Positions 2,273-31,515 of a stretch of 46,911 bases of DNA are shown here, piece after piece (the first letter of the stretch is position 1; the number at the start of each line of letters is the position of its first letter). This DNA comes from Clostridiales bacterium. GTDB lineage: Bacteria; Bacillota; Clostridia; Oscillospirales; QAMX01. The stretch lies in the NCBI GenBank assembly GCA_012800055.1, contig JAAZKA010000053.1:1-46911 (forward strand), read 5' to 3'. The notes under the pieces are model-generated. The model was not told the DNA's origin and did no database searches. It saw only the letters and a program-made list of their open reading frames with translations. The position numbers and the translations under genes are program-made.

Positions 2273-4025
2273 GGACGACCGCCTCCGTTCCGCCCGCTGC
2301 GTTCTGCAGCGCGTCCCTGCCGTACTGCGACAGATAGATGTCGCGGTAGACCGCGCAGGTTTTGAGAAGCTCTGCGTGAGTGCCGAAGCCGACGCCCTCG
2401 CCGTCGTCGAGAACCAGGATCTTGTCGCAGTCGCGGATCGAGCTGATTTTCTGCGACACGATCAGACACCCGCAATTCTCCGACACGTCTCTGAGATAAT
2501 TGCGGATGCTCGCCTCGGTGAGCGCGTCGACCGCCGATAAGCAGTCGTCCAGGATGAGGATACGCGGGTTTTTGATCAGCGCGCGGGCGATGGCGACACG
2601 CTGCCGTTGTCCGCCGGAGAGGTTGACGCCCGAGTGCCCGAGCATCGTGTCATAGCCCTCCTTGAAGCTGCGGATGAAGGTGTCCGCGCAGGCGACGCGC
2701 GCGGCCTCCTCGAGTTCCGCGTCGGTGGCGTTCTCACGTCCCCAGCGCAGGTTCTCGCGGATGGTGCCGGTAAAGAGCATCACACGCTGCGGCACGACCG
2801 CAAGGTGTCTGCGCACCTCTTTGGGGTCCGACTGCGTGACGTCCGCGCCGAAGATGCGCACCGTTCCCTCGGTCGGCTCGTAGAATTGCAGCACCAGCGA
2901 AATGAGCGTCGTCTTGCCGGCACCGGTCGCGCCGATGACGCCGACGCGCTCGCCGACGCCGCAGGTGAAGCTGACGTTTCTGAGCGCCGGACGTCCGGTG
3001 GCATTTTTATACGAGAAACCGACGTTTTCGAACACGATCCCCTGCGTTTCGTCGAGCTTCGGCGCGTTGACGGGCACTCTGAGCGACTCGGCGTTCACAA
3101 TCTCGGTGAGCCGCTGTGCCGACGCCTTCGAGCGGACAATGCGCTGGAAGATGTTGGAGAACATGTTCAGCGCGTGCAGTATCTGCGTCATGTACGACAC
3201 AAACGCGATGATCTGGCCGGTGTGCATGATGCCCTCGTTGACATAGATGCCGCCCTCCCAGTAGAGGATGACAATGCCGACGTAGATGACGAACGTGACG
3301 GCGGGGTTGAAGATTGCCATGACGCGGGAAGCGAAGACAGACTTGCGCTTCAAATCCTCGTTCGGGACGTTGAAGCGGTTGACCTCGAATCCGAAACGGT
3401 TGAACGCCTTGACGACGCGGATACCGGAGAGGTACTCGCGGATGACGGTGTTGACGCTGTCGAGTGCGGACTGCACGCGGGAAAAGAGCGGGAAGCCGTA
3501 CTTAATATTGACGGCGATCATGACAAAGATGACGGCGGTGGCGATGATGGGGATGAGCGCAAGGGTCGCGTTGAGCCGCCAGGCCATGATGATGCCGCCG
3601 ATGCAGAGGATGGGCGCTTTGATGCACACGCGCATCAGCCCCATTGTCATATTCTGAAGCTGAGTGATGTCGTTGGTGACGCGCGTCATCAGTGTTCCCG
3701 CACCGAAGCGGTTGAGCTCATCGGGCGTGAGGGACTGAATCTTTTTGTAGAGGTCGGCGCGCATGTAGTAGGCAAACCACTGCGAGCCACGCGTGGAGAG
3801 GACATTGCGTCCGAAAGCTGCACCGGCGTAGAACAGAACCGCCAGCAGCATCACCGCCGATGTCCGCAGCACATAGACCATGTCTCCGTTCGCGACGCCC
3901 ACGTCCAGGATATCGGCCATCAGCGTGGGCTGAATCAGCTCCACCCCCGATTCAACGCACATGCACATAACCGAGAAGATGAAGTAGGGCAGAATCATCC
4001 TGATGTATTTCCAATATAGGCGCAA
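2265..4025 (-). CDS. ABC exporter half-transporter with degenerate Walker B (heterodimer partner A)
   Basis: Fused membrane domain and ATPase, about 586 residues. Walker A is GATGAGKTTL and the signature is LSGGQRQR, but Walker B reads LILDDCLSAVD, with aspartate where the catalytic glutamate normally sits. The same D-D-C substitution marks the degenerate site of heterodimeric exporters such as TM287/288 and BmrCD. I chose the TTG start at 4025 because GGGAGGA at 4039-4033 sits about 8 bases upstream and the product then begins MRLYWKYIRM, the usual exporter start. An in-frame ATG at 4064 has no good ribosome binding site. It overlaps the downstream partner by 8 bases. The substrate is unknown. 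Confidence 0.9.
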   Translation of the reverse strand: MRLYWKYIRMILPYFIFSVMCMCVESGVELIQPTLMADILDVGVANGDMVYVLRTSAVMLLAVLFYAGAAFGRNVLSTRGSQWFAYYMRADLYKKIQSLTPDELNRFGAGTLMTRVTNDITQLQNMTMGLMRVCIKAPILCIGGIIMAWRLNATLALIPIIATAVIFVMIAVNIKYGFPLFSRVQSALDSVNTVIREYLSGIRVVKAFNRFGFEVNRFNVPNEDLKRKSVFASRVMAIFNPAVTFVIYVGIVILYWEGGIYVNEGIMHTGQIIAFVSYMTQILHALNMFSNIFQRIVRSKASAQRLTEIVNAESLRVPVNAPKLDETQGIVFENVGFSYKNATGRPALRNVSFTCGVGERVGVIGATGAGKTTLISLVLQFYEPTEGTVRIFGADVTQSDPKEVRRHLAVVPQRVMLFTGTIRENLRWGRENATDAELEEAARVACADTFIRSFKEGYDTMLGHSGVNLSGGQRQRVAIARALIKNPRILILDDCLSAVDALTEASIRNYLRDVSENCGCLIVSQKISSIRDCDKILVLDDGEGVGFGTHAELLKTCAVYRDIYLSQYGRDALQNAAGGTEAVVHG

Positions 4026-27805: not shown

Positions 27806-29218
27806 TTACGAGCGCTCCGGGACGCCGAGTGCCTGGAGGTGATGGCCGATGTGGGATTCGACGGCGGCGGCGTACTCGTCGGCGTATTTGCGCCAGAACG
27901 TGTAGAGGCGGTTATGGAAGCGCGGGTCGGAGAGGATGAGGCCATAGGTGATATGAATGAGCTGACGGGCGTCGTTCTGGGTGAACAGCGCAGGGAGCTC
28001 AGCGTCGGAGAGTGTTGCAAGGTCCGGAATTTTTGTAAGGTCGGTGGTGACATGGTAGTAGGTACTGGCTTCGGCGAAGGCTTCGAGGGCGTAGGCATGG
28101 ATCTCACGGTAAAGGGCGGGGTCATGGACCGCGACAACGCGCATGGCCTCAAGCCAGTTGGTGCCAGCGGTCTTGACGTGGAAAACGCCGTTGGTATTCC
28201 TGCCGACGGACGGAAAGACGCTGAACTTGTCCGAACCGGAGTGGACGCTGATCTTATAACCGAAGTGACGGGCAATGCGGGCATGGTCGTGCATCTCGGC
28301 GTCGAACTGCTGAAGGTCGCCGATGTAGTCTACGCCCTTCTGGAACTCTCCACAGAAACGCGGGGCTATCGTCGCGATTTTCACACCACGGCGGGTCAGC
28401 TCATTGGCGACAAAGAAGTGCTGCAGCGGAGTGGTGGGTGTGGCAGTCTCGTCGATGGATATTTCAAAGTCGGCTTTCGCGCCGCCTTCCTTAAAAAAGC
28501 GGTCGTAGATGGATGCCGCGAAGTCGATGGCTTCTCCATAAATGTAGACGATCTTTGCGAGCTCTTCCTTCGAGAAGGTCAGTTTCAGACCTTCGCCGAC
28601 GTCGAAGGTTTTACTGAGGTAACGTTCCTCGTACTCCGGGCACTCGACGCTGCTGCCGTCTCCCTTAATATGCTCGGAGCAGTCGAGCGTGATCATCGTG
28701 AAGCCGAGGCCGAGCGCGTACTCCACGTCTTCGGGCTTTTTGAGGTGGTCGCCGTCAGCGCCGAAGCCTTTTTCGAAGCCCTCGCGATAGACGGCAAAGG
28801 TAGCTGCGTCGAGGACGTCCTTGTAGGTGCGATGGGTCAGGTTCAGCTCACGGATGCTCTGCTGCGCGAGGACGGGCAGAGCGTCGTACTTCTCGAAGAC
28901 GCGGAGGTGTCCGGGGCCTGCGATTCCGAGGCGGTCACCGACGCCGACGGTACGCGGATAGGAGAGGACGGGTACGGGCGCGGTGAACGGAAAGTTCGCG
29001 CGGAGGAATCCGGCGCTCTTATGGTCGCATTCCGCGACGGTCACACCGCAGCGGGTTTTGCCCTCGAGGGCGGACTTGCCGACGCAGACGAGTACATCGG
29101 CGTCGCCGGCGTTGGCCATAAAGACAGTGGAGTCACCCAGGGCACGCACGGACTTGGGGTAGACGCCGTACTTTGCAAACTCCGTACAGCCGCCGGTTAC
29201 GAAGGGTTTGTAATTCAT
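27806..29218 (-). CDS. Tagaturonate epimerase family protein (UxaE-like)
   Basis: About 470 residues. The whole length resembles the UxaE family, whose Thermotoga member interconverts D-tagaturonate and D-fructuronate in hexuronate breakdown. Characteristic parts are SIDETATPTTPLQHFFVANEL, IAPRFCGEFQKGVDYIGD with acidic and histidine residues that could hold a metal, and KISVHSGSDKFSVFPS. The start at 29218 has GAGGAG 7 bases upstream; a frame extension to 29233 overlaps that site. No uronate isomerase or reductase is in the window, so the pathway assignment rests on family alone. It has its own promoter. Confidence 0.78.
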   Translation of the reverse strand: MNYKPFVTGGCTEFAKYGVYPKSVRALGDSTVFMANAGDADVLVCVGKSALEGKTRCGVTVAECDHKSAGFLRANFPFTAPVPVLSYPRTVGVGDRLGIAGPGHLRVFEKYDALPVLAQQSIRELNLTHRTYKDVLDAATFAVYREGFEKGFGADGDHLKKPEDVEYALGLGFTMITLDCSEHIKGDGSSVECPEYEERYLSKTFDVGEGLKLTFSKEELAKIVYIYGEAIDFAASIYDRFFKEGGAKADFEISIDETATPTTPLQHFFVANELTRRGVKIATIAPRFCGEFQKGVDYIGDLQQFDAEMHDHARIARHFGYKISVHSGSDKFSVFPSVGRNTNGVFHVKTAGTNWLEAMRVVAVHDPALYREIHAYALEAFAEASTYYHVTTDLTKIPDLATLSDAELPALFTQNDARQLIHITYGLILSDPRFHNRLYTFWRKYADEYAAAVESHIGHHLQALGVPERS

Positions 29219-29250
29219 ACGCAATCTCCTCATCGTTATAAGATCGTTTT

Positions 29251-29293: not shown

Positions 29294-29316
29294 ATTGTGT
29301 TCGCTTATTGTGTTCG
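29294..29316 (-). promoter_or_regulatory. Tandem 10-base repeat upstream of the epimerase promoter (possible operator)
   Basis: ATTGTGTTCG occurs at 29294-29303 and 29307-29316, a 13-base period, about 15 bases upstream of the epimerase -35 box. An inverted relative, CGAACACCAT, lies at 29352-29361. The arrangement fits an activator or repressor site, but no regulator gene is adjacent. Confidence 0.4.
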
Positions 29317-29409
29317 GATGTCAATCATCGGAAAAAATCACCGTGCAGCGGCGAACACCATGACGACCTCGAGCGGCTTCTTTCACTCTTCCATTGTACC
29401 TCAACTTGC

Positions 29410-29438
29410 TTGACAAACACGGCGGGATATGGTATAGT
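29410..29438 (+). promoter_or_regulatory. Strong sigma-A promoter for the small RNA unit
   Basis: Perfect TTGACA (29410-29415), 17 bases, TATAGT (29433-29438) with TGG before it. It is the closest match to consensus in the window. Confidence 0.8.
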
Positions 29439-29444
29439 TAGGAT

Positions 29445-29568
29445 GCTGAGCAACGGATGCCACGGGGGTTTGTTTTGAAGACATACACCCCACGTTAACG
29501 GGCAGCCATACCCTCGGTGTTGTGCTAAGAATTCAGCCGCGACCTTGGACCGGGGGCGGCTATTTTCC
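29445..29568 (+). ncRNA. Candidate structured small RNA (possibly 6S-like)
   Basis: About 125 bases between a near-consensus promoter and a terminator hairpin, with no open frame or ribosome binding site. The ends of the body pair (GCTGA at 29445-29449 with TCAGC at 29533-29537), the next AGC/GCT and AAC/GTT pairs extend this arm, and inner TGCC/GGCA and GGGG/CCCC pairs make a long, bulged rod. The terminator uses AGCCGC (29535-29540) and GCGGCT (29556-29561) followed by ATTTTCC, so it competes with the closing stem. A bulged rod with its own promoter suggests 6S RNA, though it is shorter than usual. A T-box for gltX was considered but the conserved T-box core is not evident. Confidence 0.5.
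29535..29566 (+). terminator. Terminator of the small RNA unit
   Basis: AGCCGC and GCGGCT enclose a GC-rich loop and are followed by TATTTTCC. Confidence 0.6.
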
Positions 29569-29712
29569 TATCGTCCCATTATTCTTCATAGTTTCACTCT
29601 CTTTTTGACAAGGGAACGTTGCCGCCTGCCGAAACACCCACACTTACCGTACAAAAAAGCACCTGCATCTGACCAAACCCAACCTTTAATACGCAAAACC
29701 GGAGGTCACATT

Positions 29713-31350
29713 ATGGATACCGCAGCCCTCGCCGCGCTCCTGTTCTCACACATAACCGCGTCTCCCGCAGATATGGAGGCACGTTTCCCGCGCCGTACTC
29801 TCCCCGACGGCGCACGCGTCACGCGCATCGCACCCTCTCCCACCGGTTTTTTACACATCGGCGCGCTTTTCAGCGCGCTCACCGACGAACGCCTCGCCCA
29901 CCTCTCCGGCGGCGTCTTCTATCTGCGCATCGAGGATACCGACCGCAAGCGCGAGGTGCCCGGCGCCGTCGAGGCTTATATCCGCAACTTTGACCGTTAT
30001 GGCTTGACCTTCGACGAGGGCGTCACCATCGACGGCGATACCGGTTCCTACGGCCCCTATCGCCAGTCCCAACGTACCGAAATCTACCAGACCTTCGCCA
30101 AGTGGCTCGTCGAACAGGGACGTGCCTACCCCTGCTTCTGCACCGAGGATGAGCTGAATGCCATGCGCGAGCAGCAGGAGACCGAAAAGATCACGCCCGG
30201 CTATTACGGCACGTGGGCCGTCTGGAGAGACGCCGACGAGACCGCCGTCCGCGAAAAGCTCGCTGTCGGTGTTCCTTATGTCATACGCTTTAAATCCCTC
30301 GGCGATCCCGAGAGGCGCATCAAGTTCACCGACCAGATCAAGGGCGCGCTTGAATTCCCCGAGAACGACCAGGATATCGTGCTCCTGAAGTCCGACGGCA
30401 TCCCCACCTATCACTTTGCCCACGTCGTCGACGATCACCTGATGGGTACTACCCACGTGGTACGCGGCGAGGAGTGGCTCGCGTCTCTGCCCGTACACCT
30501 CGAAATTTTCCGCGCGATGGGCTGGAAGCCGCCGAAGTTCTGCCATACCGCCACCATCATGAAGCTCGACGGTTCCTCCAAGCGCAAGATCTCCAAGCGC
30601 AAGGATCCCGAGGCCGATCTTGAATGGTATTCCCGCGAGGGTTATCCCCCCGAGAGCGTCCGTGAATACGTCATGACGCTGCTCAACTCCAATTTCGAGG
30701 ACTGGCGCCGTGACCACGCAGCCGAGGACCTCACCGCGTTCCCGTTCTCATTGAATAAGATGAGCGTCTCCGGCGCACTGTTCGATCTGCAGAAGCTCGC
30801 CGACGTCTCGAAGAACGTCGTCTGCCGCATGTCCGCCGCACAGGTCTATCAGAGTGCCGCGGCGTGGGCAAAGGAATACTCTCCCGATTTCCACGCGCTT
30901 CTGACCCGTGACCCTGCCTACTCCACCGCCATCCTCAACATCGGCCGCGAAGACCCCAAGCCCCGGCGCGACTATGGCGTCTGGTCGGAGTTGCCCGCGT
31001 ATATGAGCTTCTTCTTCGACGAAACCTTCACCCCCGGCGGCGAGTATCCCGCGAACCTCACCGCCGATGACCATCGCGCAATACTCACTCGCTTCCTGGA
31101 AACCTACTGCGCGGACGACGATGTCAATGCATGGTTTGATAAGCTCAAGGCGATTGCCGCGGAACTGGGACTCGCGCCGGATACGAAGACCTTCCGCAAG
31201 AATCCCGGCGCCTACCGCGGACATGTCGGCGACGTGAGTATGGTGCTGCGTGTCGCGGTCACCGGCCGGAATAACGCGCCTGACCTCTACAGCGTCATGC
31301 GCATCCTCGGCGCCGAACGAACTCTCGCGCGCGTGAGAGCGGCGTTATGA
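29713..31350 (+). CDS. gltX: Glutamate--tRNA ligase
   Basis: Charges tRNA-Glu (and often tRNA-Gln in bacteria lacking GlnRS). 545 residues from the ATG at 29713, chosen because GGAGG lies 8 bases upstream. The class I motifs are clear: SPTGFLHIG (HIGH region) near residue 47 and KRKISKRKDP (KMSKS region). A 40-residue extension precedes the catalytic domain, as in other long clostridial GltX proteins. Coding is strongly C-ending, like dnaB. A long leader without a promoter of its own separates it from the small RNA terminator, so the promoter may be the one at 29410 by read-through. Confidence 0.96.
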   Translation: MDTAALAALLFSHITASPADMEARFPRRTLPDGARVTRIAPSPTGFLHIGALFSALTDERLAHLSGGVFYLRIEDTDRKREVPGAVEAYIRNFDRYGLTFDEGVTIDGDTGSYGPYRQSQRTEIYQTFAKWLVEQGRAYPCFCTEDELNAMREQQETEKITPGYYGTWAVWRDADETAVREKLAVGVPYVIRFKSLGDPERRIKFTDQIKGALEFPENDQDIVLLKSDGIPTYHFAHVVDDHLMGTTHVVRGEEWLASLPVHLEIFRAMGWKPPKFCHTATIMKLDGSSKRKISKRKDPEADLEWYSREGYPPESVREYVMTLLNSNFEDWRRDHAAEDLTAFPFSLNKMSVSGALFDLQKLADVSKNVVCRMSAAQVYQSAAAWAKEYSPDFHALLTRDPAYSTAILNIGREDPKPRRDYGVWSELPAYMSFFFDETFTPGGEYPANLTADDHRAILTRFLETYCADDDVNAWFDKLKAIAAELGLAPDTKTFRKNPGAYRGHVGDVSMVLRVAVTGRNNAPDLYSVMRILGAERTLARVRAAL

Positions 31351-31470: not shown

Positions 31471-31515
31471 GCAGAAGACGGCGTGACTTTCGGGTCACGC
31501 CGTCTTCTGCGTTTT
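31471..31515 (+). terminator. Rho-independent terminator after gltX
   Basis: Perfect 17-bp stem (31471-31487 with 31494-31510), TTTCGG loop, and a GTTTTC tail. It separates gltX from the converging peptidase gene. Confidence 0.9.

Follow-up and report, generated by a model that had tools for sequence, protein, structure and literature searches.

The gap ahead of gltX, the glutamate-tRNA ligase gene, in the stretch of 46,911 nt analysed here in its entirety (the window) probably harbours a lone and diverged gene for an antitoxin RNA (+ strand, about 29445-29567), left over from a convergent type I toxin-antitoxin module whose toxin has decayed. The case is made from comparison of sequences: the 3' end of the predicted RNA is related to that of a widespread family of antitoxin RNAs, each of which typically faces a very small membrane toxin, and the strand opposite retains the family's stop codon. 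For the window, this replaces the guess of a 6S RNA or of a switch controlling gltX with an identity that can be tested.

The element and its surroundings

A sequence-only reading of the window had picked out a TTGACA-17-TATAGT promoter, a body of about 90 nt with no open frame and a GC-rich hairpin with a T tail, and all of these are present (Table 1). The −35 box occupies 29410-29415 and the −10 box 29433-29438, with 17 nt between them, 11 of 12 bases in agreement with consensus and a TG ahead of the latter that makes it an extended −10. No + strand ORF of at least 60 aa is confined to 29440-29540, and the frames in the body that can be made out by eye are of 11 and 13 codons only. The terminator hairpin pairs AGCCGC (29535-29540) with GCGGCT (29556-29561), is followed by ATTTTCC and has an energy of −14.4 kcal/mol when folded alone; with a T run of only 4, it was passed over by a strict scan for terminators. 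What is predicted here is still best described as an orphan small-RNA gene that has a promoter and a terminator to itself and occurs as a single copy in the genome.

Table 1. Coordinates of the features discussed, as positions in the window
Feature	Position	Strand	Basis
Sigma-70 type promoter TTGACA-17-TATAGT with extended −10 TG	29410..29438	+	Sequence; family antitoxin RNAs are also preceded by near-consensus promoters
RNA 5' domain, predicted +1 at about 29445	29445..29511	+	Sequence; not recognisably related to the family 5' hairpin
3' module, judged homologous to antitoxin RNAs of type I systems; contains the (bidirectional) terminator hairpin 29535-29561 with its T tail	29512..29567	+	
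9-codon ORF MKNNGTIGK, ATG at 29589, TAG 29562-29560 after Lys	29560..29589	-	Sequence; family stop position
CGGCAGGCGG, core motif CGGYAGGCGG of family toxin-mRNA leaders; candidate leader remnant	29622..29631	-	
gltX, glutamate--tRNA ligase; adjacent gene, considered separate from the element	29713..31350	+	TIGR00464, 316 bits

The element occupies the gap between gltX and a divergent gene (27806-29233, - strand) whose plasmid-borne relatives are annotated as belonging to the tagaturonate epimerase family. In the gap before that gene, which has a promoter-like site at 29279-29251, the sequence ATTGTGTTCG occurs twice in direct repeat with a 13-nt period and once inverted as GCGAACACCAT (29294-29316 and 29351-29361), and these repeats look like a putative operator for a uronate regulator. 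Behind gltX there is a perfect 18-bp terminator hairpin (31471-31510); glnS follows gltX in relatives, not here.

Of the known RNA families in Rfam 15, T-box leaders included, none matches anywhere in the window at gathering score, so that a T-box ahead of this aminoacyl-tRNA synthetase gene can be set aside along with the other candidates that such a search covers; relaxing the cut-off to E 10 adds nothing but a snoRNA match that lies away from the element and is put down to chance. (In a distant clostridial genome a stretch that by eye is T-box-like, GGTGGTACCACGG, precedes gltX at about 3600-4000 of locus L084, and is unlike the window.) DNA comparison with relatives gave coding chance matches only, phage and plasmid records gave no match, and the four matches of a window 17-mer in viral contigs are chance ones in unrelated sequence.

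A family of convergent toxin-antitoxin modules

The window sequence by itself served to build a covariance model (R1), with which 394 genomes from the order and 391 from the class (~780) were searched. Within the order, at E <= 0.01, there were six matches besides the window, namely five independent loci and one duplicate, all of them from one family of antitoxin RNAs; the far more numerous ordinary terminators gave none. Four of the five distinct loci are faced by a short ORF on the other strand, with one hydrophobic stretch, a lysine end and its stop codon in the terminator stem, and the fifth (L150) adjoins a second copy that faces a toxin. The class genomes contributed one match, L317, from another family of the class. 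It too is a complete module of the kind described, in which a toxin frame (...YEILSVILTLGILIVSIIALCIKAKK) faces the RNA and the antitoxin is present a second time.

A further model, R2, was built from the R1 matches with the window left out (as it also was from a third model, R3), and has matches at E <= 1e-4 in 99 of the 394 order genomes, several of which hold 8-10 copies. A facing toxin with its stop codon at constant offset is present at 29 of the 30 best loci and, by the same test, at 58 of 72 further members, some of the other 14 having a diverged frame. The toxins are membrane proteins of 20-33 aa, encoded on the opposite strand with the stop codon in the shared terminator. In the RNA the conserved parts are a 5' hairpin, GGGTGCTRCCG-RYAGA-CGGTTAGCCCC, situated just after the promoter, and a 3' module in which a UAA-rich stretch lies ahead of a terminator of the form [A/G]-CCGC-n(~16)-GGGCGG. 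Nine of 11 terminator pairs have changes on both sides; the alignment behind these counts also took in some matches to the opposite strand, the terminator being bidirectional, and had been made to fit the structure, which biases the counts in its favour.

More than 20 IMG/VR viral contigs carry members (L284-L312, from antitoxin-motif and leader-motif searches), and the family therefore travels with phages or prophages. Tandem arrays are to be seen in the L183-L283 set (e.g. L235, L248 and L233), and at L233, L317 and L286 two antitoxin RNA genes follow one another on the same strand, at L233 with no toxin between them. Some copies face no toxin (L225, L233 and L235). Are RNA antitoxins kept for protection? 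Toxin-less copies let one ask. Abundant as the family is, its RNA belongs to no Rfam 15 family at the ten loci that were compared, and its toxins are hardly detected by Pfam and NCBIfam, so that genome annotation will miss it.

Is the window's RNA a member?

With R2 and R3 the element scores 32.8 and 31.2 bits, respectively; it is far ahead of any other place in the window and ranks first in the genome. All 72 confirmed members have an R3 score of 41 bits or more, as against 31.2 for the window, and among ordinary terminators of family genomes scores go up to 32.8 bits with R3 and likewise attain the window's level with R2; tests that consider sequence without structure were therefore used. 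Scored against a profile made from the final 58 nt of family members, which did not include the window, the element obtains 21.7 bits, while 405 ordinary terminators score at most 2.9 and 72 held-out members from 11.6 upwards with a median of 32. In a harder control, with terminators that the models had preselected in some 46 Mb of sequence from family genomes, one (L171) reached 21.9 bits and the next 15.7 and less. Local alignment of 29512-29566 with L317 scores 53, compared to a maximum of 35 in 2000 shuffles, and common to both is CCTCGGT...AGCCGCGACCTTGG...GGGGCGGC. On the strength of the 58-nt profile, the class-wide R1 search and this alignment, the 3' module, i.e. the last ~55 nt with the facing stop codon included, is taken as homologous to the family antitoxin RNAs.

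Other family features are unevenly represented. The terminator with a UAA-rich stretch ahead of it is there, L171 being the window's equal on the 58-nt profile that captures this part, and so is a promoter close to consensus, expected some 90 nt ahead of the terminator, the window's RNA being 30-40 nt longer. The family's 5' hairpin profile has no match in the window; a weak one-arm match, TAGGATGCTGAGCAACGG at 29439-29456, lies at the very 5' end (p 0.075), and an apparent ~50-nt insertion in the 5' hairpin was not significant. A facing single-helix toxin of 18-33 aa is lacking.

These results bear on whether the element might instead be an unrelated orphan sRNA, or even a spurious promoter and terminator, with a hairpin that is antitoxin-like by chance. 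The covariance-model scores of generic terminators, the standing of L171 and the unmatched 5' domain are what such a reading would lead one to expect; it is at odds with the exclusive matching of antitoxin RNAs by both window-only searches, with a 55-nt alignment to L317 that is far beyond shuffles and with the presence of the opposite-strand stop codon in its proper place, and we consider it unlikely.

The facing strand

The TAG that closes the 9-codon frame sits exactly at the family toxin stop position, which is that of 29 of 30 family toxins. The frame has no membrane segment or hydrophobic stretch, and it is read as a candidate toxin remnant. Some 60 nt beyond the terminator, on the strand expected for a toxin leader, is the leader core motif, which has a single copy in the window where 0.51 would be expected on both strands of 46.9 kb; being short and chosen after inspection, it is a supporting detail only, and a longer 46-position leader profile has no match at the window. 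The genome, which is 89% complete, yielded neither a Hol_Tox gene (a toxin type returned to below) nor a second antitoxin or other copy of the module. Repeats shared by the window's RNA and the leader region amount to only a 10-nt pair, elsewhere, and a crude test with RNA-RNA duplex energies gave no complementarity signal at the window and none for intact pairs either, so its power is low.

Folding and the relationship to gltX

The sequence-only reading had also spoken of a structured RNA, and the terminator hairpin bears this out, but the overall fold is no more stable than that of shuffled sequence: its energy is −45.1, versus −41.8 +/- 3.8 for shuffles (z −0.88), with 37 of 200 shuffles equally good, and 35 of 330 windows of the same GC in the contig fold as well as the element does. 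The structural claim therefore rests on the terminator. Similarly, the overlap that had been described between terminator arm and closing stem is there, in that the stem GCTGA/TCAGC shares bases with the 5' arm of the terminator and two folds can be computed. One, with a competing hairpin of 29511-29524 and 29538-29556, has −43.5 kcal/mol at full length; closing stem plus terminator has about −41.5. Such computed alternatives are not evidence of a switch.

They are relevant to another explanation, that gltX is transcribed from the promoter at 29410, with the hairpin 29535-29561 acting as an attenuator governed by the competing fold with 29511-29524. Between terminator and gltX there is no other promoter-like + strand site, so read-through into gltX is conceivable, and a T tail of only 4 together with two mutually exclusive folds of nearly equal energy would suit attenuation. 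The attenuation proposal is nonetheless weakened by the comparative results, and also by a fold no better than that of shuffled sequence and by the lack of a match to T-box or any other known leader. A similar leader before gltX is absent in 20 family genomes, and nothing similar was found in 80 further gltX loci; the comparison of homologous intergenic regions that had been proposed as a check accordingly disclosed no relative of the element upstream of gltX in the other genomes examined. In relatives gltX comes closely behind a promoter of its own, after a short leader, or else follows other genes, and the RNAs to which the 3' module belongs face small toxin genes and have no link to gltX. 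A role as gltX leader is thus improbable in our estimation. That the element is 6S RNA, as also suggested earlier and as its rod-like predicted fold and a size in the low range might encourage one to think, is scarcely conceivable, RF00013 having no match here and finding the genome's 6S gene at 50.5 bits on contig C115.

Proposed origin and mechanism

The mechanism envisaged for intact modules comes from about 100 loci and from analogy with Fst and RatA. Antitoxin RNA and toxin mRNA would be transcribed convergently with one bidirectional terminator in common, and the complementary 3' ends of the two RNAs would pair, as probably would their 5' hairpin loops, with the pairing either blocking translation of the toxin mRNA or triggering its degradation, as in Fst/RNA II and TxpA/RatA. 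In the window the toxin gene would have shrunk to a short frame with no membrane helix and the antitoxin RNA been left to diverge. Whereas the homology of the 3' ~55 nt and the lack of a toxin frame are computed, for the solitary antitoxin RNA we infer transcription, pairing and any present function; it may have no target left in its genome, or may act only on related toxins brought by mobile elements. A stronger version, in which an RNA that has a strong promoter and a lengthened 5' domain is at work as a solitary antitoxin that silences toxins of phages and mobile elements, in effect an RNA anti-addiction module, is conceivable and has rather little probability.

Comparison with known toxin-antitoxin systems

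Some of the family toxins have weak matches to Hol_Tox (PF16935, putative holin-like toxin; E 0.01 and 0.4) and share with it a length of 20-33 aa, one membrane helix and a Lys-rich end; all the matches are below the curated cut-off and most of the family toxins tested have none. The closest layout is that of Fst/par (RNA I and RNA II of pAD1), with its convergent promoters, small hydrophobic toxin and shared bidirectional factor-independent terminator (PMC7472228). The family has the same arrangement, including a bidirectional terminator common to toxin mRNA and antitoxin RNA (PMC7472228), with no sequence likeness found in Rfam or Pfam. The par RNAs cross direct repeats (PMC7472228), while both family RNAs carry look-alike 5' hairpins, and the window differs from par in having no intact toxin.

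In TxpA/RatA of Bacillus subtilis the antitoxin is a cis-encoded antisense RNA with 3' overlap (PMC3531473). The family resembles it in layout, and RNase III degradation, as there, is by analogy a plausible model for the family (PMC3531473); the RatA overlap is of about 120 nt (PMC3531473), and the family has no Rfam match to RatA. BsrG appeared in the Rfam search of family loci at chance level only (20.5 bits, E 0.5). The type I modules of Clostridioides difficile have been described as having no homology to other known type I toxins (PMC6563280). They and the present family can be likened by layout, both consisting of convergent, overlapping genes for a small toxin and an antitoxin RNA in Clostridia (PMC6563280).
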